This document shows positions 13,091 through 29,893 of a DNA stretch of 32,085 bases, piece by piece. How positions within the stretch are numbered: the stretch's first letter is position 1; the number at the start of each line of letters is the position of its first letter. The notes beneath the pieces are model-generated. The model did no database searches, was not told where the DNA came from, and was given only the letters and a program-made list of their open reading frames with translations. Source of the DNA: Terriglobia bacterium. GTDB taxonomy: Bacteria; Acidobacteriota; Terriglobia; Acidiferrales; UBA7541. Both the position numbers and the translations under genes were made by a program. The DNA is taken from assembly GCA_020073485.1 (NCBI GenBank), contig JAIQFB010000039.1, positions 1 through 32,085 on the forward strand, in the 5' to 3' direction.

Positions 13091-13705
13091 TCAATCCCGG
13101 GCAAGGACTTTGTCCGCGGAATCGAGCTTTCCGGATGCGATGCGCAGAAAATACTCGTGCACGGTGGTGTCGCTGGTGAGTTCGGGATGGAATGTCGCGA
13201 TCAAGGTGCGGCCCTGGCGCACGAGGACCGGCTGGCCTTGGGAGGTCGCTAGGACTTCCACATTTGGTCCCATACGGTCAATGATTGGCGCGCGAATGAA
13301 CACCATTTCGATGGGTTCCGGCGAGAGCGACGTCAATCCGCTGCGAACTTCGCTGGCGAGCTGGCGTCCATAGGCATTGCGAATTACGGTGATGTCGGCA
13401 AGGCCCAGCGAGGCCTGGTCCGGATGATGCACTTCGCGGGCCAGCAGGATGGCTCCGGCGCAGGTGCCGAAGATCGCGCCGCCGCGCGCGGCAAATTCGC
13501 GGAGACTCCTATCGAGTCCCTCCTCGACAAGGAATTTCCACTGCGTGGTGCTTTCGCCACCGGGCAAGATCATGGCGTCCACACCTTCAAGGTCGCGCGG
13601 CGTGCGCACGAAGACATGTTCCACACCAAGGCGCGCGAGCGTCGCGGCATGTGCTTCAAAGTCGCCTTGCACGGCGAGGATTCCGACTTTTGGTAATTTT
13701 TCCAT
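13091..13705 (-). CDS. pdxT: Pyridoxal 5'-phosphate synthase glutaminase subunit
   Basis: A 204-residue class I glutaminase that supplies ammonia to PdxS in the DXP-independent pyridoxal phosphate pathway. Key residues: oxyanion and signature GGESTT (49-54), nucleophile Cys82 in GTCAGAI, and His173 and Glu175 in TFHPEL. The N-terminal KVGILAVQGDFEAH is the family hallmark. It is in the same direction as pdxS, 184 nt after it, the gap being filled by family A repeat A2. The two subunits therefore may be co-transcribed despite the gap. Confidence 0.96.
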   Translation of the reverse strand: MEKLPKVGILAVQGDFEAHAATLARLGVEHVFVRTPRDLEGVDAMILPGGESTTQWKFLVEEGLDRSLREFAARGGAIFGTCAGAILLAREVHHPDQASLGLADITVIRNAYGRQLASEVRSGLTSLSPEPIEMVFIRAPIIDRMGPNVEVLATSQGQPVLVRQGRTLIATFHPELTSDTTVHEYFLRIASGKLDSADKVLARD

Positions 13706-13889: not shown

Positions 13890-14801
13890 CTACCATCCGC
13901 GCGTCTGCAGCAAATCTTTCTCTTCGATCTGCCGGATGTCGAGGCCCTTCATCGCCTCGCCCAACACTTCCGAGGCTTCGAGGACAACCTTGGCGTCCTG
14001 ATAATGCGTGGTGGCTTTCACGATGGCCTTGGCTCGCGCTTCGGGATCGCTGGACTTGAAAATTCCCGACCCGACAAAGACCGATTCCGCGCCGAGATGC
14101 CGCACCAGCGCCGCGTCGGCGGGTGTGGCAATGCCTCCGGCGGAAAAATTCGGCACGGGAAGCTTTCCGGTGCGCGCGATTTCCCGGACCAGGTCCAGCG
14201 GCGCGCCCATCTCTTTCGCCACGTGCATCAATTCATCGCCGCGCAGCGTGGTGAGCCTCCGCATTTCGCCGGTGATGGTCCGCATGTGGCGCACGGCCTC
14301 GACCACGTTGCCAGATCCCGCTTCGCCCTTGGTGCGGATCATGGCCGCGCCCTCGGCGATGCGCCGCAGCGCTTCGCCCAGGTTGCGCGCGCCGCACACA
14401 AACGGAACTTTAAAGTCGTGCTTCCATACGTGGTTCTCTTCGTCGGCGGGCGTGAGCACTTCGCTCTCGTCGATGAAATCGACTTCCAGCGCCTCGAGCA
14501 CCGCCGCTTCGGCAAAGTGGCCGATGCGTACCTTGGCCATCACCGGAATGCTCACGGTGTCCATGATTTCGCGGATGATTTTCGGCGCGGCCATGCGCGC
14601 CACGCCGCCCTCTTTGCGAATGTCCGAAGGCACGCGCTCCAGCGCCATCACGGCGCAGGCACCGGCGTCCTCCGCGATGCGCGCCTGCTCGGCGTTGGTG
14701 ACGTCCATGATGACGCCGCCCTTGAGCATTTCGGCCAGGCCTACTTTTACGCGCCAGGCGTCGTTCAAATAGCTTCCGTTGCTTCCTTGCGTTGCTGTCA
14801 T
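13890..14801 (-). CDS. pdxS: Pyridoxal 5'-phosphate synthase, synthase subunit
   Basis: A 303-residue cytosolic TIM-barrel enzyme that makes pyridoxal phosphate from ribose 5-phosphate, glyceraldehyde 3-phosphate and ammonia. Recognisable landmarks are Asp33 (VIMDVTN), Lys90 in MAKVRIGH (the first Schiff-base lysine), Lys158 in [10 protein letters not shown] (the second) and [17 protein letters not shown] near the C-terminus. Starting at 14801 rather than at the upstream ATG (14819) is preferred because GAGGAG lies six bases before it. The hotdog thioesterase gene ends 58 nt upstream on the same strand, with a MocR-type regulator beyond it; pdxT is downstream. Confidence 0.97.
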
Positions 14802-14859
14802 TTCCGTCTCCTCATTCAAATCCTGCTTGGCTGCGCCACAAATTGAAATTCCGGCGCGC

Positions 14860-15288
14860 TTACGGCTGCGCCGCGTATTTCTTCCGGTCGATGATCACGA
14901 ACCGGCCTTCGCCACGCGCGAGCAAATCTCCTGCGGCATTCCGTATCTCCCCTTCATGATACAACTGACGCCCCTCGCGGCGGGTGACAAATCCCTCCAC
15001 GACAATATCCGTGTTCACGCGGATGGGGCGCTTGTACTCGACGAGCAGGTCCGCGGTGACCGCGGACTGCCCGTCGAAGCGGCAGGCCTTGCTCATGACT
15101 TCATCGAGCAGCAAGGCAATGATTCCGCCGTGAAGAAACCCAGAGCCTCCCTGATATTCCTCACCCAGGCGGAAGCGGCCCACGATGCGCTTGCGCTCGT
15201 CGTCCTGTTCAAACGAAAGTTGCATTCCGCGAGCGTTCGCGCCGCCACAACCGAAGCAATGATTCCCAGGTTTGGGATCGATTTTCAT
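14860..15288 (-). CDS. PaaI-type hotdog thioesterase
   Basis: The 142-residue product has the hotdog signature [19 protein letters not shown], with the conserved HGG after the first strand, preceded by [14 protein letters not shown]. Such proteins hydrolyse acyl-CoA or acyl-ACP thioesters; the substrate is unknown here. The Cys-rich CFGCG leader is common in a subset of the family. It lies between the regulator and pdxS, with 58 nt to pdxS, so it may be co-transcribed with pyridoxal phosphate genes. A metabolic link to vitamin B6 is not obvious and may be incidental. Confidence 0.85.
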
Positions 15289-15492: not shown

Positions 15493-17034
15493 TTACACGA
15501 GCGCCACGCGCGGCACTTCGGCGCGGCGAGCGCCGCGCTGGCGCTTGCGCATTTCGCTGCGCAGCACGTCAGCCAGCGTGGCGACGCCGCGGGCGATATC
15601 GCGTTCGCTGAGCCCGGTGAATCCAAGGCGCAGCGTGTTCGGCTGCGGATTCTGGAAATAGAAATAGCGTCCCGGAGCGAACAGCACGCCCCGCTCGCGC
15701 GCGTGAATCAGCAACTCGTTCGAATCGAATCCGGCGGGCAACTCAAGCCAAACGCACATGCCGCCCTCAGGACGCGTCCATTGTGTTCCAGGTGGCATAT
15801 GAGCCACGAGCGCGTGCTCCAGCGCGGCCAGTCGCCCGCTGTAGGCCTTGCGCATGCGTTCCAGGTGGCGAACTAACTTCCCGCGCCGCATGTATTCCGC
15901 CAGGATGGATTGCGCCAGATGGCCGGTGTGCAAATCGGTCGATTGCTTCACCAGACGCAGCCGGTCGATGACGTTCGCCGGCGCCAGAACCCATCCGACA
16001 CGCAGTCCCGGAAATGCAATTTTCGAAAAGCTGTCGATTTGCACAACCAGATTCGAACGATCCAGCTGCTTGAGAGACGGAACCAGCTCGCCCCGGGCCC
16101 GCAGCCGCGCATAAATGTGATCCTCAATCACAGGCACCTGGAAGCGCGCCGCTATTTCCAGCAGACGGCGCCGCTCGGGCACCGGAAGCGTGGTGCCGGT
16201 GGGGTTATGAAAATCCGGCGTGAGGACGATCATTTTCACGCGGTTCTGCAGCAGCACGGACTCAATCGCCGAAACGTCCACCCCGGGCACCTTGCCGGGA
16301 CCGGTCTCGGTCTTCATCGGCACGCCCAGTATTCGAACGCGCGCCCCGGAAAAAATCGCCAGCGCGCCCGGGTAGGTGGGATTTTCGATGACGATGGTGT
16401 CGCCGGGCCGCAAAAATGCCTTGCACAGCAGATCGAGGCCCTGCTGGCCGCCGTCGGTGATCAGTATGTTTTCATCCGTGACACCGTAGCCTTCCTCGCA
16501 GAGCATTTCGATCAACGCCTGCTTCAGCGGAGGGTAGCCATCGGACGAGCCGAATTGCAGAATGTCCGGTCCTTCCCGCCGCCAGACGGTGTTGGTGCAA
16601 TTCCGAAGCTCCTCGATGGGAAAAAATTCGGACGCGGGCCGGGCCATCAGAAACGAGATGGCCCCGCGCGGTGCAGCCTGGGTCAGACGGCTCAGCATTT
16701 CCTCGCCGCGCTCGTCGGCAAACAGGGCTTCCCATCGCAGTCCGCCGTGCACGGGCGTGGCCGGAGGAGGAGCATGAATTTCCTTGACCTCACCATCGCT
16801 GCAAATAAAAGTGCCGCGGCCCACGTGCCCGCTGATCAGGCCTTCGGATTCGAGTTCGGCGTAGGCGTTGGCGACCGTGGTGCGGTGGACACCAAGTTGC
16901 ACGGCCAGTTCGCGGCTGGCGGGAATGCGGTCTCCGGCGCGGAGGTCGCCGGCATGAACCAGGGCGCGCAGCTGGTCGCGCAGCTGAATATAGAGCGGCA
17001 CGTGGCTTTCGGGCTGTAGATGAAGAGGAATCAT
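15493..17034 (-). CDS. MocR/PdxR-like GntR-family regulator with aminotransferase domain
   Basis: The 513-residue protein fuses an N-terminal GntR winged helix (residues about 10-78, PLYIQLRDQLRALV, SRELAVQLGVHRTTVANAYAE, GHVGRGTFI) to a fold type I aminotransferase domain. The PLP site is intact: Asn277 in FHNPTG, Asp305 and Tyr308 in IEDHIYAR, Lys338 in SFSKIAFPG and Arg345. MocR-family members sense PLP or amino compounds; PdxR members control pdxST. Being directly upstream of the thioesterase, pdxS and pdxT on one strand makes PdxR likely, but a different MocR target is possible. A promoter with repeated TTGG half-sites lies just upstream (17034-17088). Confidence 0.9.
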   Translation of the reverse strand: MIPLHLQPESHVPLYIQLRDQLRALVHAGDLRAGDRIPASRELAVQLGVHRTTVANAYAELESEGLISGHVGRGTFICSDGEVKEIHAPPPATPVHGGLRWEALFADERGEEMLSRLTQAAPRGAISFLMARPASEFFPIEELRNCTNTVWRREGPDILQFGSSDGYPPLKQALIEMLCEEGYGVTDENILITDGGQQGLDLLCKAFLRPGDTIVIENPTYPGALAIFSGARVRILGVPMKTETGPGKVPGVDVSAIESVLLQNRVKMIVLTPDFHNPTGTTLPVPERRRLLEIAARFQVPVIEDHIYARLRARGELVPSLKQLDRSNLVVQIDSFSKIAFPGLRVGWVLAPANVIDRLRLVKQSTDLHTGHLAQSILAEYMRRGKLVRHLERMRKAYSGRLAALEHALVAHMPPGTQWTRPEGGMCVWLELPAGFDSNELLIHARERGVLFAPGRYFYFQNPQPNTLRLGFTGLSERDIARGVATLADVLRSEMRKRQRGARRAEVPRVALV

Positions 17035-17140: not shown

Positions 17141-17241
17141 GTCATTGCGAGTCCCGGAAGGGACCGCGACAAACTTCGCGAGGAATCCCTCCCGGATCGA
17201 TGGAAAAAGAAAGAGGGACTCCTCGCTTCGCTCGGAAAGAC
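17141..17241. repeat. Family A inverted repeat, copy A3
   Basis: Bounded by GTCATTGCGAGT and CTCGGAAAGAC, with interior GTCCCGGAAGGGACCGCG and GAGGAATCCCTC as in copy A2. It lies in the divergent region between the regulator and the SDR gene, and a run of it is read as SERSEES in one frame. Confidence 0.85.
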
Positions 17242-17349
17242 GACGCATTTCTTGGTGTTTGCCTGGGCCGGCTTGCGGGTTACAATTCCCCTCCCTATCG
17301 ACTTGAAAATCATGAAGGGCCGATTCCTGAAACGGAGGAAGTGAGCAGA

Positions 17350-18138
17350 ATGGCGAATGCTAAACCCTTGGAAGGAAAAATTACGATTGTGACGGGCGCG
17401 AGCCGCGGTATCGGCCGGGCCATCGCGCTGCGACTGGCGCGGGACGGGGCCACGATCGTGCTGGCCGCGCGCACGGCGGAAGATTTGTCCAAAGTAGCCG
17501 CGGAGATCAAGGCCGGTGGAGGCGCGGCGACATGCGTCGCGATGGACCTGCGCAATGCCGACGCTCCGGCCGCGCTGGTGAAGGCCGCCATTGACGCGCA
17601 CGGGGCGATCGATATCGTGGTGAACAACGCCGGCGCGACCAAGCGCGGCGATTTTTTTGAGCTGACCGACGCCGATTTTCTGGATGGCTTCGCGCTGAAA
17701 TTTTTCGGCGCGGTACGGTTGACGCGCGCGGCTTGGCCGTACCTGAAGGCGCGGCGCGGCTCCGTGTTGAGCATCATCGGCATCGGCGGGCGCACGCCCG
17801 GCGCGGAATTTGCCATCGGCGGCTCGGTGAACGGCGCCTGCCTGTCATTTGCGAAGGCCCTGGCCGATATCGGCATTCGTGACGGCGTGCAGGTGAACGC
17901 AATCAATCCGGGGCGAATCCGCACCGGCAGGTTCCAGAAAATGGTAGAGGCACAGGCGGCACGCGAGGGAATAAGTCTGGAAGCGGCAATGCAGGAAATT
18001 ATCGGCAAGGCCAGTATTGCGCGAGTGGGAGAACCCGAGGACGTCGCGAATCTGGCGGCGTTTGTATTGTCTCCTGAGTCCCGGTTCCTGCAGGGCGCGC
18101 TGATCGACCTTGACGGGGGGCAGACGAAAACGGTTTGA
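17350..18138 (+). CDS. SDR-family protein lacking the catalytic tetrad
   Basis: The 262-residue protein, from the ATG at 17350 with GGAGG about 11 nt upstream, has the short-chain dehydrogenase Rossmann motif TGASRGIG (15-22) and the NNAG motif (92-95), and the C-terminal DLDGGQ. However the catalytic positions are changed: aligning SIIGIGGRTPGAEFAIGGSV puts Gly144 at the Ser position and Gly157 and Asn161 at YxxxK, and the conserved Asn appears as Lys117. I recall an SDR subgroup with the same substitutions (PRK06125-like), so it is probably a real variant rather than a decayed gene. It may bind NAD(P) without classical chemistry. The in-frame upstream extension across the repeat is unlikely. 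Confidence 0.88.
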   Translation: MANAKPLEGKITIVTGASRGIGRAIALRLARDGATIVLAARTAEDLSKVAAEIKAGGGAATCVAMDLRNADAPAALVKAAIDAHGAIDIVVNNAGATKRGDFFELTDADFLDGFALKFFGAVRLTRAAWPYLKARRGSVLSIIGIGGRTPGAEFAIGGSVNGACLSFAKALADIGIRDGVQVNAINPGRIRTGRFQKMVEAQAAREGISLEAAMQEIIGKASIARVGEPEDVANLAAFVLSPESRFLQGALIDLDGGQTKTV

Positions 18139-19665: not shown

Positions 19666-19754
19666 GTCATTTCGAAGCCGCTCCTGCGGGTGAGGAATCT
19701 CTCTTTCTTTTAACAATTAAAGCCCGGAGAGATTCCTCACTCGTTCGGAATGAC
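19666..19754. repeat. Family A inverted repeat, copy A4
   Basis: Ends are GTCATTTCGAAG and TTCGGAATGAC, and both arms include GTGAGGAATCTCTC against GAGAGATTCCTCAC. It lies between the Sel1 protein and the deacetylase gene, whose ribosome site follows closely. Confidence 0.85.
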
Positions 19755-19803
19755 GACGATTTTTTATATTAGCCAGAGCATGGACGCCTCCAAGGAGAAA
19801 CGA

Positions 19804-20676
19804 ATGAAGCTTTGGGACCGTGTGGAATACAGCGCGATTGTGGACCGCAAACCGCTGCGCCTTCCGGACAATAAGACCGTGGCCGTCTGGCCGCTGGTGA
19901 CGTTCGAGGTGTGGGATCCGGACGGGCCGCTGCCCCGTACCATATTGACGCCGCCGCAAGGCGTGCTGTTCATTCCCGACGTGCCCAACTGGAGCTGGTC
20001 GGAATACGGCGCGCGCGTGGGGTTCTGGCGCATGAAGGCGGCGCTCGATAAGCGAGACATGAAAGCGGTGTTCTGCATCAACGCTTCGGTGATCGAACGG
20101 TACCCGCGCATCTGCGAAGCCGCACTCGAATCTGGATGGGAATTCATGGGCCACAACCTGATTCAGAAACCCATGCATGCCATGCCCAACGAGGAAGAAG
20201 CGATTTTGAAGAGCGTCGAGATGATTCAGAAGTTCACGGGAGCGAAGCCGCGCGGCTGGATGGGGCCCGGACTCACCGAGACGCATCACACACCCGAGCT
20301 GCTGGTGAAGGCGGGCGTGGAATACACCGTGGATTGGGTGCTGGACGATCAGCCTTGCGTCATCAAGACCGCAGAGGGACCGCTGTACAGCGTGCCGTAT
20401 TCGGTGGAAGTAAACGACGTGGTGCTTATGGCCATCGAAAAGCATAGCTCGTCCGAACTTTTTGAGCGTGCCTTGGCGACCTGCGACCGCTATCTTTCCG
20501 AAGGGCCCGAGCAGGCGCGCGTGCTTTCCCTCGCCTGCCATCCATATCTGCACGGAGTGCCGCACCGCATCGGATATTTCGAGAAATGCCTGGACGAGCT
20601 TTCAGCCAAGAGCGGCGTGATGTTTACCACCGGCGGGAAGATCCTGGATTGGTATAAGGCGGCGCGTGGAATGTGA
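19804..20676 (+). CDS. Polysaccharide deacetylase-family protein (PuuE-like)
   Basis: I prefer the ATG at 19804 (290 residues) because AAGGAG lies about seven to eight bases upstream, over in-frame ATGs at 19780 and 19750. The sequence matches the NodB/CE4-like barrel of the PuuE subgroup: VWPLVTFEVWDPDGPLPRTI, ESGWEFMGHNLIQKPM, GWMGPGLTETHHTPELLVKA, LACHPYLHG and the C-terminal FTTGGKILDWY. The NodB TFDDG motif is replaced by TFEVW. PuuE is a metal-independent allantoinase; an amide or ureide hydrolase role is inferred, but the substrate is unknown. Convergent with the NHL gene. Confidence 0.85.
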   Translation: MKLWDRVEYSAIVDRKPLRLPDNKTVAVWPLVTFEVWDPDGPLPRTILTPPQGVLFIPDVPNWSWSEYGARVGFWRMKAALDKRDMKAVFCINASVIERYPRICEAALESGWEFMGHNLIQKPMHAMPNEEEAILKSVEMIQKFTGAKPRGWMGPGLTETHHTPELLVKAGVEYTVDWVLDDQPCVIKTAEGPLYSVPYSVEVNDVVLMAIEKHSSSELFERALATCDRYLSEGPEQARVLSLACHPYLHGVPHRIGYFEKCLDELSAKSGVMFTTGGKILDWYKAARGM

Positions 20677-24118: not shown

Positions 24119-24844
24119 ATGAACAAGCATGATGCAGCGCGCCGCGCGTTTTTGGTTCGAGCGGCAGCCGGCGCGGGCGCCGTGGCAGGGGCGGGACTTG
24201 TGCCTGGGGCCTTCGCCGAAACTCAGGAGCAAGCCAAGGAAGCGGTTCCATCCTCCGCTGCCCCAATGCACGCAAACGTGCACGCGAATCGCGAAATTCA
24301 GGGCGCGTTCTTCAATCACGCCGACGCCGCCACGATGGCCGCGTTTGTCGAACGCATCATGCCTGGCGCTCCCGGCAAGCCGGGCGCGCGCGACGCCGAT
24401 GTGCTCAATTACATCGATCTGGCGCTCTCCGGCGCGTATTCCGATCTTCAGGAATTCTACCGCCAGGGACTTGCGCAGCTCGGCGTCTACTGCGGGGCAA
24501 AATATAAAAAGCAGTTCGCGCAGCTTAGCGCCGCGCAGCAGGATGAGGTCCTGACGGCGCTCGATGAAGGCAAGGCCACGGGATTCGCGTGGCCCACGGC
24601 GCAGGCGTTTTTCAACACCGTGCGCACGCACACGATGGAAGGCATGTTCGCCGACCCGATATATGGCGGGAACAAGGATTTCGCGGGTTGGGAACTGGTG
24701 GGATTTCCGGGCGCGCAGATGTTTTATTCGCCGAAGGATATGGAGAGCAAAGAGGCGTTCTCGCGCGCGCCGATTATGGGGCTACAAACGGGGCTGACCA
24801 AAATCTCCATGGGGCCTTCCAATGGCCCAGCGCGGAAGGGATAA
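24119..24844 (+). CDS. Tat-exported gluconate 2-dehydrogenase subunit 3-like protein
   Basis: The 241-residue protein begins with a twin-arginine signal, ARRAFLVRAAAGAGAVAGAG (RR at residues 8-9), so it is exported folded to the periplasm. The mature part includes TMAAFVERIMPGAPGKPGAR, DVLNYIDLALSG and a C-terminal FADPIYGGNKDFAGWELVGF, as in the small subunit of FAD-dependent gluconate/sugar dehydrogenases. Such subunits act as chaperone and export carriers for the flavoprotein, which lacks its own signal. AAGGAGA lies upstream of the ATG. The GMC gene starts three nt after the stop, so the two are an operon. Confidence 0.9.
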   Translation: MNKHDAARRAFLVRAAAGAGAVAGAGLVPGAFAETQEQAKEAVPSSAAPMHANVHANREIQGAFFNHADAATMAAFVERIMPGAPGKPGARDADVLNYIDLALSGAYSDLQEFYRQGLAQLGVYCGAKYKKQFAQLSAAQQDEVLTALDEGKATGFAWPTAQAFFNTVRTHTMEGMFADPIYGGNKDFAGWELVGFPGAQMFYSPKDMESKEAFSRAPIMGLQTGLTKISMGPSNGPARKG

Positions 24845-24847
24845 GCC

Positions 24848-26569
24848 ATGGCCACTGAAAAAACGGATGTAGTCATCGTAGGAGTGGGCGCGGCCGGAGG
24901 AATCCTGGCGGCGGAGTTGGGGAAAGCCGGAATGAAGGTCATTGGCCTCGAGCGCGGCCCGCGCCTGACGACCGCGGACTTCGCGCCGCACGATGAGCTG
25001 CGTTATTTCCAGCGGATGGATCTACGCCCCAGCAACAAACGCCAGCCCATCACCTGGCGGCAGAACGCAAACGTGCGTGCGACCCCTATGTCCATTTTAA
25101 ATTACGGCAATCAGGCGGGCGGCGGCACGGTCCACTACGGCGCGTTGTCGTGGCGCTTTCACGAGGACGACTTCCGCGTGCGGTCGCACACCATCGAGCG
25201 TTATGGAGCGAAGGCGATCCCTGCGGATTCCTCGGTCGCCGACTGGCCGCTGACCTACGCCGACCTCGAGCCGTATTACGATCGCGCGGAATACGAACTC
25301 GGCGTTTCCGGCAAGGCGGGCAATCTGCAAGGGCGCAAGATCGACGGCGGAAATATCTTCGAGGCCCCGCGGCGGCGCGAATATCCCCTGCCGGCGCTGC
25401 ACCCGGATCAATGCGGCGTGCTTTTTAATGAGGGAGCGAGCAAGCTGGGGTATCACCCGTTTTCCTCGCCGCGCGCGATTCTTTCGCAGCCGTATCAGGA
25501 CCGGCCGAGCTGCACGTACTGCGGCTATTGCCAGTCGTTCGGCTGCCACGTGGGAGCGAAATCGAGCATCCTGGTAACGAAACTGCCGGAAGCCGACGCC
25601 ACCGGCAATTTTAAACTGCTTACCGGCACGATGGTCTATCACGTGAACACGGACAACAGCGGCCGCGCCACCGGCGTGTCGTATTACGGCCCGGACGGGT
25701 CGGACAACACCATCGAAGCGGAGCTCGTGATCCTTGCGCCGTTCATCTATGACAATGTGCGACTGCTTCTGCTCTCGAAAACGGAAAAATTCCCAAATGG
25801 CCTGGCAAATTCCAGCGGGCAATTGGGAAAACACATGACCGCGCACATTATGGCCAAGGTTTTCGCCGCTTTTGACGACCGGTACGTGAACGTGTACATG
25901 GGGCCCAGCGCGCAGAAGCATGCGCTCGACGATTTCAACGCCGACAATTTCGATCACAGCGGCCTGGACTTCATTCGCGGCGCGCAGATTTGCATCGGCC
26001 CCGCGGACCTGGAAGCCGGCCCGATCGGAACGGCGATGAGTCTCGAGCCGCCGCCGGGAACGCCGCGCTGGGGCGCCGCGTATCGCGACTTCGCCGCGAA
26101 ATATTTTAATCGCTATGCGGCAATCGTCGCGCAGACCGAGAACCTGCCGTACGCCGACCAGGCCATCGACCTCGATCCCTACGTGCGCGACCAGTGGGGC
26201 CTGCCCGCGCCGCGCATCACCTACAACTGGAAGCGCCCGAACGAATTGGCGCGCGTCGAATTCCTGATGCAAAAAATGGAAGGGATTGGCCGCGCGATGG
26301 GCGCGAGCAAAGTGTGGCGCGGCGGGCTTGGGCCCGGCGCTCCCGGCGCGCACCACGAAGGCGGCGCGCGCATGGGCCGTGATCCGAAAACTTCCGTGGT
26401 CAACCGCTACAGCCAGTCGTGGGACATCCCGAACCTTTTCTTGATGGGCAGCGCGACGCATCCGACCATGGCCGGGTTCAATCCGACGTTGACGATTCAG
26501 GCGCTGGCGTATCTGACAGCCGATGCGATTGTGAATCGGTATAAGAAAAACCCCGGGCCGCTGCTGTAG
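24848..26569 (+). CDS. GMC-family FAD dehydrogenase, large subunit
   Basis: The 573-residue flavoprotein has the FAD-binding motif GVGAAGGILAAELGKAG (12-28), the substrate-domain cluster CTYCGYCQSFGC (Cys222, 225, 228, 233), which may hold an Fe-S centre as in related FAD-glucose dehydrogenases, and the C-terminal catalytic HHEGGARMG and GFNPTLTIQALAY segments. It probably oxidises a sugar or alcohol in the periplasm, carried by the Tat small subunit just upstream. No cytochrome c subunit gene is in the window, so its electron acceptor is unknown. It follows the small subunit with a three-nt gap, using GGAAGGG in the upstream gene's end as ribosome site. The substrate (gluconate, glucose, other polyol) cannot be fixed. 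Confidence 0.92.
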   Translation: MATEKTDVVIVGVGAAGGILAAELGKAGMKVIGLERGPRLTTADFAPHDELRYFQRMDLRPSNKRQPITWRQNANVRATPMSILNYGNQAGGGTVHYGALSWRFHEDDFRVRSHTIERYGAKAIPADSSVADWPLTYADLEPYYDRAEYELGVSGKAGNLQGRKIDGGNIFEAPRRREYPLPALHPDQCGVLFNEGASKLGYHPFSSPRAILSQPYQDRPSCTYCGYCQSFGCHVGAKSSILVTKLPEADATGNFKLLTGTMVYHVNTDNSGRATGVSYYGPDGSDNTIEAELVILAPFIYDNVRLLLLSKTEKFPNGLANSSGQLGKHMTAHIMAKVFAAFDDRYVNVYMGPSAQKHALDDFNADNFDHSGLDFIRGAQICIGPADLEAGPIGTAMSLEPPPGTPRWGAAYRDFAAKYFNRYAAIVAQTENLPYADQAIDLDPYVRDQWGLPAPRITYNWKRPNELARVEFLMQKMEGIGRAMGASKVWRGGLGPGAPGAHHEGGARMGRDPKTSVVNRYSQSWDIPNLFLMGSATHPTMAGFNPTLTIQALAYLTADAIVNRYKKNPGPLL

Positions 26570-27421: not shown

Positions 27422-28561
27422 ATGCCGACATCTTCCGGCCTGCTCGCGCACAGCGCCATGGTTTCTCCCGCGCCGCAAACTCCCTCCGCCTCCAACGGCA
27501 AAAAGAAAGTAATTTACGACCAGGACCACCGCGGGCCGCTTTCCACCGACACGACCGCGACCCTGATGCTGCTGCAGGCGGATAACATCGATCTGCTGGG
27601 GATTTGCACCGTGACCTGCGATATGTGGGCCAAGCAGGAAACCGCCTACGCGCTCCGGTTGCTGGAACTCATGAGCCGCGCGGAAGTGCCGGTGTTCATG
27701 GGCGCCGAGGAGCCTCTGCTCAATACAAAGGCCGAGGCGCAGATGCGTTACCAGATGTTTGGTTCGCGCACGCTTGGAAACGAAGGATACCTGGGGTGCT
27801 TTGCGAAAGATGCCGGAAATCGTGACGACCTCACGCCGCTGCCGCCGCCCTACGGCCGGTTTGCCCGGATCAAAGCGCAGCCCGAACCCGCCGCCGACTT
27901 CATCATCCGCACGATTCGCGCCAATCCGAACGAAGTGACGATGTATTGCGGCGGGCCGATGACGAATCTGGCGCTGGCGGCCATGCTCGCTCCGGACATT
28001 GTGCCGATCACCAAGGAAGTGATTTTCATGGGAGGAGGCATTCATCATTCCAGCAGCTCGGTGAACGTGTATTTCGACGCGGAAGCCGCCAAAATTGGAT
28101 TCCGCGCGGGGTGGCCGAAATTTACGCTGGTCACCACGGATCTCGCCGAACAAGTTCACCTGGGCGACGACGGCAAAGTGGACGCGATCGTGGACCGCGC
28201 GCACGCGCCCATCGCCGATCTGTTCCGCCTCTACGAGCAGGCGCCGCAGCGGGCCAATCCGAAACGGCAGTCGTTCCGCATGCCGGATGAAATGATGGCC
28301 GCGCACGTGATCGATCCCACGATTTTCGGCGGATACGACGATATGTACATCGATATCGTGACGCACAATGACGGGCACTACGGCGATACGTCGTTCTGGG
28401 ATGCGAGCTGGAAAGGCATTGGCGGGGATACCGCCGGGCTGGGACAGAACAATCCTTCCATCAAGGCGGGCCGCGTTCAGATGCTGAAGGATATTAATAA
28501 GGCGCGCTTTCGCGATCTGTTCGTCGATTTAATGACGCGGCCGATTAATGGGTTTAAGTAG
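27422..28561 (+). CDS. Nucleoside hydrolase-like protein, cytosolic form
   Basis: The 379-residue product has the inosine-uridine nucleoside hydrolase fold: VIYDQDHRGPLSTDTTATLM at residues 30-49, CGGPMTNLALAAMLAPDIVP in the middle, EVIFMGGGIHH, and MPDEMMAAHVIDPTIFGG near the end. The usual DTDxxxDD site is DQDxxxxxxTD: the calcium-type Asp residues (Asp33, Asp35, Asp43 positions) look kept, while the second Asp of the DD pair is replaced by Thr42. The catalytic-His position before the C-terminal Asp (MPDEM) appears to be Pro. It likely cleaves N-glycosidic bonds in nucleosides, but the substitutions make the substrate uncertain. No signal peptide, unlike the downstream paralogue. A family B repeat starts at its stop codon. 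Confidence 0.85.
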   Translation: MPTSSGLLAHSAMVSPAPQTPSASNGKKKVIYDQDHRGPLSTDTTATLMLLQADNIDLLGICTVTCDMWAKQETAYALRLLELMSRAEVPVFMGAEEPLLNTKAEAQMRYQMFGSRTLGNEGYLGCFAKDAGNRDDLTPLPPPYGRFARIKAQPEPAADFIIRTIRANPNEVTMYCGGPMTNLALAAMLAPDIVPITKEVIFMGGGIHHSSSSVNVYFDAEAAKIGFRAGWPKFTLVTTDLAEQVHLGDDGKVDAIVDRAHAPIADLFRLYEQAPQRANPKRQSFRMPDEMMAAHVIDPTIFGGYDDMYIDIVTHNDGHYGDTSFWDASWKGIGGDTAGLGQNNPSIKAGRVQMLKDINKARFRDLFVDLMTRPINGFK

Positions 28562-28645: not shown

Positions 28646-29893
28646 ATGTCACCAACACGCCGTGAATTTATTAAGACAGTGGGAGCCGCGATTGCCTCCA
28701 CGCAGATTCCCCCCGAAACCGCGGCGATGAGCGCGGAGCCTGCTCCGATCGCAGCGCCCTCCCCTGCGCCGCCGCAGGCGGGCGGCAAGCGAAAAGTGAT
28801 TTACGACCAGGACAATTCCGGGCCGTTCGGCACCGACATCCTGGGGACGCTGATGATGCTGCAGGCCGGCAACATCGACCTGCTCGGGATTACGATGGTC
28901 ACCGGAGACGCCTGGATGAAGCAGGAGATGGCCTACACGCTGCGCCTGCTGGAACTGATGGGGCGCACGGAAATTCCGGTGTATCCAGGCGCGGAATTTC
29001 CGATGCTCAACACGAAGGAAGAATGGCTGCTGCGCCTGCAACTCTATGGCGGGCATCGCCTGGACCCCTGGCTCGGTGCGTTTAACAAAAATAACGGCGG
29101 GCCCGATGAGATCAAGCCGCTGCCGGCGCCCTACGATCGCTTCGCCGACCTCAAGGGCCAGCAGGACCACGCCGCGCGGTTCATTGTCAAGACAGTTCGC
29201 GAAAATCCGGGCCAGGTGACGATCTATGCGGGAGGGCCGCTCACGAACGTGGCGCTGGCCATTGCGCTCGCTCCCGACATCGTTCCGCTGGTGCCCGAAA
29301 TCGTGGTCATGGGAACCGGGTTTCACGTGTTCACGAACGCATTCAATATTTTCTTCGATCCCGAGGCTGGGCGAAAAGTGCTGCGCGCTGCGTGGCCGAA
29401 ATTAACGATCGTCACCGTGGACCTCGCCGAGGAATTGCACGAGAGCGATGAAATCGCGCCCGGCCGCAGGATGGTCGACGAAATCGCGCGACGTGCCGTG
29501 TCCCCCATTTCCGACCTGTTCCAAAGGTACGCCGTGGAGCCATTGCAACAGAATCCCGGCAGGAAATTGTTCCGAATGGCGGATGAAATGATCGCCGCGC
29601 AGATCATCGACCCAAGTATTTTTACAAAATCCGAACAGATGTACGTGGATATCTGCACCACGCCGGGGCCGCGCTACGGGGATTCCATGTTCTGGGCGAA
29701 AGATTGGGAGGGGACAGCTGACGCGGGAAGATCCCGAGTGACCGCATCCGACAGCCGCGTGTTCGTGAACCCGCGGCAGTTTTATCTGGGGCCGCCACCT
29801 TCAGCAGGACTGGTGAACGTGCTGCTGGAGGCCGATCACGACCGGTTCAAGAAACTCTTTGTCGATCTGATGACCAAGCCTCTAAAGAAGTAG
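28646..29893 (+). CDS. Tat-exported nucleoside hydrolase-like protein
   Basis: The 415-residue product is a paralogue of the previous gene (shared VIYDQD, GTLMMLQAGNIDLLGI, GGPLTNVALAIALAPDIVP, MADEMIAAQIIDPSIF). It has a twin-arginine leader TRREFIKTVGAAIAS at residues 4-18, then a Pro/Ala-rich spacer up to GGKRKVIYDQ, suggesting periplasmic or membrane-tethered location. The site is DQDNSGPFGTD: again Thr replaces the first Asp of the DD pair, and MADEM has Ala where a catalytic His would be. A tandem duplication with different localisation is inferred. Its stop TAG is the first base triplet of the family C palindrome at 29891. Confidence 0.88.
   Translation: MSPTRREFIKTVGAAIASTQIPPETAAMSAEPAPIAAPSPAPPQAGGKRKVIYDQDNSGPFGTDILGTLMMLQAGNIDLLGITMVTGDAWMKQEMAYTLRLLELMGRTEIPVYPGAEFPMLNTKEEWLLRLQLYGGHRLDPWLGAFNKNNGGPDEIKPLPAPYDRFADLKGQQDHAARFIVKTVRENPGQVTIYAGGPLTNVALAIALAPDIVPLVPEIVVMGTGFHVFTNAFNIFFDPEAGRKVLRAAWPKLTIVTVDLAEELHESDEIAPGRRMVDEIARRAVSPISDLFQRYAVEPLQQNPGRKLFRMADEMIAAQIIDPSIFTKSEQMYVDICTTPGPRYGDSMFWAKDWEGTADAGRSRVTASDSRVFVNPRQFYLGPPPSAGLVNVLLEADHDRFKKLFVDLMTKPLKK

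Follow-up and report, generated by a model that had tools for sequence, protein, structure and literature searches.

Whether an SDR is judged active or dead depends in practice on its Asn-Ser-Tyr-Lys tetrad. According to passages of one paper (PMC4988501), the Lys of a classical SDR hydrogen-bonds the nicotinamide ribose and lowers the pKa of the Tyr, and the Asn interacts with that Lys through water. Passages of the same paper also state that replacement of the catalytic Tyr by Glu goes with ene reduction and that flavin-free ene reductases are of practical interest.

Two SDRs of solved structure are the closest described systems. AerF (PDB 6jh7, 6jha, and 6jhb) belongs to the aeruginosin pathway of Microcystis aeruginosa and is a double bond reductase by its title. 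BacG, or YwfH (PDB 3u49, 3u4c, and 3u4d), belongs to the bacilysin pathway of Bacillus. We number the AerF residues (K119, Y123, S160, and N164) along the chain sequence and the BacG residues (K113, Y117, N154, S155, and N158) from a 259-residue reading, taken from a genome locus that is 100% identical to the 129-residue 3u49 stretch. K113, Y117, S155, and N158 are what we take to be site residues of BacG, and we checked their place in the alignment. As excerpted from a review (PMC9147277), BacG converts epoxy-3E-H2HPP to epoxy-4S-H4HPP, and the names of substrate and product imply reduction of a C=C bond.

The gene and its reading frame

The SDR gene considered here (the query) lies in a stretch of 32,085 nucleotides, the whole of which we call the window. 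It has these features:

17334..17339 (+ strand): GGAGGA, a likely ribosome-binding site (by eye), 10 bases 5' of the ATG at 17350
17350..18138 (+ strand): SDR-fold protein of 262 aa with K117, G144, G157, and N161 (from translation, Pfam, alignment, and AlphaFold2 model)
17392..17415 (+ strand): cofactor motif TGASRGIG, residues 15-22, intact and fitting the classical-SDR TGxxxGxG (from translation)

An earlier note on this DNA had described the gene as full length and open, with its cofactor motif intact, and both statements hold: translation gives 262 residues and then a stop, with no interruption, and TGASRGIG is in place. (The frame is also open further upstream, to an ATG at 17200.) The NNAG motif is intact as well. 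Pfam places the protein in the SDR superfamily (PF13561, 144.9 bits against a cut-off of 27; PF00106, 143.4 bits against 26.6). The AlphaFold2 model, built from 19 aligned sequences, has a mean pLDDT of 92.2 and a pTM of 0.91; it is weaker at residues 141-160 (pLDDT 76 and 81 per ten-residue block), within which two of the four tetrad positions fall.

Taken alone, the disappearance of all four catalytic residues would suggest a decaying pseudogene. Against this, the frame is open, the model is confident, and the identical four letters occur in records titled as three phyla. Furthermore, comparison with a 91% orthologue (L001) gave a dN of 0.047 and a dS of 0.484 (dN/dS about 0.10; Nei-Gojobori, own script), so the replacement of the tetrad is not decay. 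(Synonymous sites were saturated for L002, which gave no ratio.) We rejected the pseudogene explanation, which has practically no chance of being right.

Exchange of the tetrad asparagine and lysine

We aligned 145 SDRs: 80 loci that resemble the query (the top 80 of 559 matches), 9 from the query genome, 7 from plasmids, 29 from a phylum sample, 17 from other genomes, AerF, BacG, and the query itself. AerF and BacG entered by a separate route, a PDB sequence search. The phylum sample had 199 genomes, 39 of them with a match at 1e-60, and its loci are the best 30 of 40 matches minus the window's own. Two further genome samples gave a match at 1e-75 in 9 of 190 and 2 of 185 genomes. The 145 rows exclude two copies of the query (L081 and L098), two repeats (L128 and L129), and nine further BacG loci (L137-L145). 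Twelve rows were added later, of which two repeat earlier ones (L159 = L002 and L161 = L001, judged partly by identity).

We call a row K-N if it has Lys at position 117 with Asn at 161; the set is defined by this Lys. Similarly, “canonical” rows are those that read N/H-S-Y-K; their tetrad letters follow from the definition and are not a result. The relevant codons of the query are as follows:

17698..17700 (+ strand): Lys117, which replaces the tetrad Asn (alignment; all 47 Lys117 rows have Asn161)
17779..17781 (+ strand): Gly144, which replaces the tetrad Ser (Gly in 47 of 47 K-N rows)
17818..17820 (+ strand): Gly157, which replaces the tetrad Tyr (Gly in 31 of 47 K-N rows, Tyr in 0)
17830..17832 (+ strand): Asn161, which replaces the tetrad Lys (Asn in 47 of 47 K-N rows and in 0 others of the 145)
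17929..17931 (+ strand): Arg194, typical of non-classical rows (Arg in 46 of 47 K-N rows)

The alignment bore out the claim that the query reads Lys117, Gly144, Gly157, and Asn161 where a classical SDR has Asn, Ser, Tyr, and Lys. The commonest pair at positions 117 and 161 is Asn/Lys (63 rows), followed by Lys/Asn (47 rows); in another 27 rows Arg161 goes with Leu, Thr, or Asn, and the remaining 8 have His/Lys. In other words, Lys117 is present if and only if Asn161 is, without a single mixed row among the 145. G144 and N161 are invariant across the 47 K-N rows, as are the cofactor glycines G16, G20, and G22. Residue 157 is more variable (Val, Pro, Asn, Ala, Ser, or Ile in the K-N rows without Gly) and is never Tyr, and residue 194 is Met in 55 of 69 canonical rows versus Arg in 46 of 47 K-N rows. 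The four letters K-G-G-N are found in 31 of the 145 rows, query included, and are therefore neither a sequencing artefact nor decay. Since most K-N rows were picked by likeness to the query and are mutually related, the K-N count measures conservation, not independent events. Nine other SDRs of the query genome (nine of its 14 other matches) read N/H-S-Y-K.

In the alignment, then, the tetrad Asn and Lys of the K-N group have exchanged places, with Ser and Tyr lost. The query has Lys at the Asn position and Asn at the Lys position, the pattern by which we drew the BacG/AerF-type swapped group in this analysis.

A quick tree, built without the active-site columns, split 61 non-classical rows from 13 classical rows (SH-aLRT 95); L057 (N-G-A-K) and L121 (N-S-S-K) grouped on the non-classical side. 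The K-N rows require 2 changes on this tree. A tree that holds all 47 of them together was 14.3 log units better (p-AU 0.822), and a single origin of the swap is compatible with these comparisons, not proven. The quick tree gives AerF and BacG no settled place, and the BacG branch is among the long ones.

A second non-classical group lies near the query. All 28 of its rows combine the pattern x-Ser144-Ser157-Arg161 with Pro150 and Arg194, and it too is without the catalytic Tyr and Lys. Its members are L105-L120, L122-L127, L018, L021, L023, L130, L131, and L166. Among the 29 phylum loci, 22 belong to this Arg161 group, 6 are K-N, and 1 is N-S-S-K. PDB 2z1n may share the Arg161 pattern (by eye in the alignment).

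The earlier note pointed to a PRK06125-like group with the same changes, and called its chemistry not established. PRK06125 (NF004779) is indeed the best NCBIfam match of the query, which at 190.3 bits against a curated cut-off of 261 is not itself a member. The pointer to the group is sound, because three proteins above the cut-off (L173, L174, and L175, from 3 of 229 genomes) carry the swap. These three read K-G-G-N, as does the query, but have Tyr at 121 where the query has Ala; K-G-G-N as a PRK06125 trait is what is seen in these three members rather than a published definition. No match above the cut-off occurs in any of the 41 relatives' genomes. All 26 rows of our profile alignment match NF004779, but they also match many other SDR families. 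Eight further swapped proteins all scored below the cut-off, seven of them matching at 1e-55 and one (L103) not, and we found no mention of PRK06125 in the literature searched. On chemistry, we correct the note: it is not a blank, because the Asn/Lys swap is also in AerF and BacG, which the available descriptions present as reductases.

The missing tyrosine and a proposed chemistry

How the query compares with solved structures depends in part on the method. For a profile of 26 sequences, AerF (6jh7) is the best PDB match at 236 bits; a sorbose reductase comes next at 205 bits, and BacG is sixth at 185 bits. A PDB search with the query sequence only puts the two-domain protein 2et6 first and AerF second, while residues 114-262 only give AerF first and BacG second. 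With the query model, Foldseek ranks AerF first (6jhb, a co-crystal with NADPH and 4-hydroxyphenylpyruvic acid), whereas the top VIA-align hit is a classical sorbose reductase (Z 37.2), with no AerF among the 50 VIA-align rows listed. Because Foldseek puts AerF first and VIA-align does not separate the query from classical SDRs, the fold alone decides nothing. Overall, the comparisons show a protein of the SDR fold with its cofactor motif, a reciprocal swap that is strictly conserved in the sampled rows, a likeness to AerF and BacG, and the lack of any Tyr fit for the role.

AerF and BacG differ from the query at one more site:

17710..17712 (+ strand): Ala121, where AerF Tyr123 and BacG Tyr117 stand (alignment)

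Tyr at 121, one helix turn from the Lys, is found in 16 of the 47 K-N rows (AerF, BacG, and 14 others), and is therefore not defining for the swapped group as drawn. The remaining K-N rows have Ala (21), Thr, His, Ser, or Gly, and the 13-row subclade of the query has Ala except for Ser in L008. The earlier note had asked whether a Tyr-Lys pair from another position occupies the site. This may apply to AerF and BacG, whose Lys-x3-Tyr lies on one helix. It fails for the query, in which residue 121 is Ala and the sole Tyr is Tyr131. L001 has His at the place of Tyr131 and, aligned over all 262 residues, has no Tyr anywhere, so a relocated Tyr cannot be general to the query's branch. We rejected a Tyr from elsewhere filling the site. 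Altogether, 8 of the 47 K-N rows, L001 among them, are without Tyr in the query-aligned columns, and comparing K-N rows with Tyr121 to those with a small residue there turned up no obvious stand-in.

Our preferred reading, which we regard as evenly poised, is that the query is a working NADPH-dependent reductase of the BacG/AerF type, whose target would most likely be a carbonyl-conjugated C=C bond of a small and probably acidic substrate. Arginines of the Arg19/Arg41 type go, as a rule of thumb, with a preference for NADPH, and we infer this preference because both are present in the query (R41 in 46 of 47 K-N rows). With NADPH bound in the usual SDR manner, the conjugated system would accept hydride at its far (beta) carbon. 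The developing enolate would be stabilised by Lys117, which stands where classical SDRs have Asn and may donate a proton; Asn161, standing where they have Lys, would take over the hydrogen bonds to the cofactor ribose. Because the classical Lys bonds the ribose and the Asn is water-linked to that Lys, the exchange keeps a matched pair, in which Asn161 could sit on the ribose with Lys117 turned to the substrate. Arg194 would probably hold the acidic group of the substrate, a role we infer because the AerF ligand and the BacG substrate are keto acids. The query is without the Lys-x3-Tyr of AerF and BacG; if that Tyr is the acid, then the chemistry of the query must differ. We suggest, tentatively and with some doubt, a tyrosine-free SDR branch: a lysine-centred double-bond reductase in which Lys117 or the substrate is the acid, with some members Tyr-free throughout. 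Our literature search, which had most subscription papers outside its scope, found no report of such a branch.

The query might instead reduce a carbonyl (or oxidise an alcohol) without Tyr, with Lys117 as the acid or with a proton supplied by the substrate, as may happen in SimC7. For that SDR without the Ser-Tyr-Lys triad, substrate-assisted ketone reduction has been proposed (passages of PMC5039031), and classical carbonyl reductases are near AerF in the profile search (205 vs 236 bits) and lead in VIA-align. As described there, however, SimC7 belongs to the extended SDRs and has another triad, Ser-Ile-His, which makes it a precedent and no demonstrated relative; and the relatives with the same swap act on double bonds, AerF by its title and BacG by our reading of its conversion. 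We therefore consider carbonyl chemistry unlikely.

That the query merely binds NADP(H) or another ligand, for example as a redox sensor, would fit a protein that retains its cofactor motif with all four classical catalytic residues gone. Yet G144 and N161, present in all 47 K-N rows, are as conserved as the cofactor glycines, and what is available on AerF and BacG describes both of these swapped proteins as enzymes, which makes a non-catalytic role quite improbable. A different reaction on the SDR scaffold (cofactor-assisted isomerisation, dehydration, or epimerisation) would suit a site in which no acid comparable to Tyr remains, and the annotated plasmid homologues have diverse neighbourhoods; but no relative with such a reaction turned up and it has no specific support, and we think it very improbable.

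Genomic setting and comparison with described reductases

The query is divergent to a set of genes on the minus strand:

15493..17034 (- strand): pdxR-type regulator, divergent neighbour (NF052282, 334.5 bits, cut-off 320)
14860..15288 (- strand): 4HBT/PaaI-like thioesterase (PF03061; no NCBIfam match at 1e-10)
13890..14819 (- strand): pdxS (NF003215, 511 bits, cut-off 395)
13091..13705 (- strand): pdxT (PF01174 SNO)

Downstream are a 129-aa frame (no Pfam match), a Sel1-repeat protein, a polysaccharide-deacetylase-like protein, and an NHL protein. The SDR is divergent to PaaI-pdxS-pdxT in four genomes of the genus (the window, L167/G656, L168/G658, and L170/G660), and pdxR lies in between only in the window and L170. 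In a fifth genome (G659, L169), the contig stops 67 bases upstream of the SDR match, and the sixth (G657) has a weaker SDR match only. Of the 12 window genes, only the SDR was found in L171 and L172 (both from a single other genus of the family, one genome each) or in L003, L004, L006, L013, L016, and L020 (some with short flanks). Four genomes of the genus thus share the link between the SDR, the thioesterase, pdxS, and pdxT, and none of the eight loci compared outside the genus showed it. Among plasmids, 76 records match the query, all at <60% identity. Seven plasmid loci were fetched among 20 listed of the 76; six have annotated and varied surroundings, and the other (L096) has none annotated. 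The window neighbours, by Pfam and NCBIfam, and the loci compared name no substrate.

We also noticed several other features. The third gene after the SDR in the window (19750-20676) and the second after the SDR in an Aminobacter plasmid (L092:8493-9359) are both of the polysaccharide-deacetylase family and cluster by blastp; the window gene has a weak match to the PuuE allantoinase domain (95.8 bits, cut-off 424.6). Two related loci have a second SDR-like frame after the K-N gene on the same strand (L005:6768-7514 and L016:7573-8328). Two neighbouring frames of the window, 27422-28561 and 28646-29893, resemble each other and by eye look like nucleoside-hydrolase paralogues in tandem. The stretch 24119-26569 codes for a small protein whose start looks Tat-like (by eye) and then for a GMC oxidoreductase (Pfam), the two presumably resembling a sugar dehydrogenase pair.

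AerF shares with the query the SDR fold, the swap (K119/N164), Gly at the Ser position, and Arg at 194. It differs in overall sequence (32% identity) and at two single positions: Ser160 stands at the Tyr position (Gly in the query), and Tyr123 follows the Lys (Ala in the query). It also serves a peptide biosynthesis pathway, whereas a Pfam search of ten window neighbours revealed no cluster of this kind. BacG likewise has the swap (K113/N158), Gly at the Ser position, and Arg at 194, but it is 28% identical, with Asn154 at the Tyr position and Tyr117 after the Lys. Identities of 32% and 28% are too low to transfer a substrate to the query. Isopiperitenone reductase of Mentha resembles the query in another way, as an SDR ene reductase with its catalytic Tyr replaced (passages of PMC4988501). 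There the change is Tyr to Glu only; Asn, Ser, and Lys are kept, and the enzyme belongs to the salutaridine/menthone reductase-like subfamily.

The Asn/Lys exchange, kept in all sampled K-N rows, is the mark of a group in which both proteins of solved structure are, by description or by our reading, C=C reducers. If an assay agrees, K117/N161 would be a simple sequence mark for ene-reductase-type SDRs that are annotated “SDR family oxidoreductase,” and the tyrosine-free branch tests the need for any Tyr. An ordinary-looking SDR carries a conserved, rearranged active site of a type that is known from BacG and AerF and little studied.
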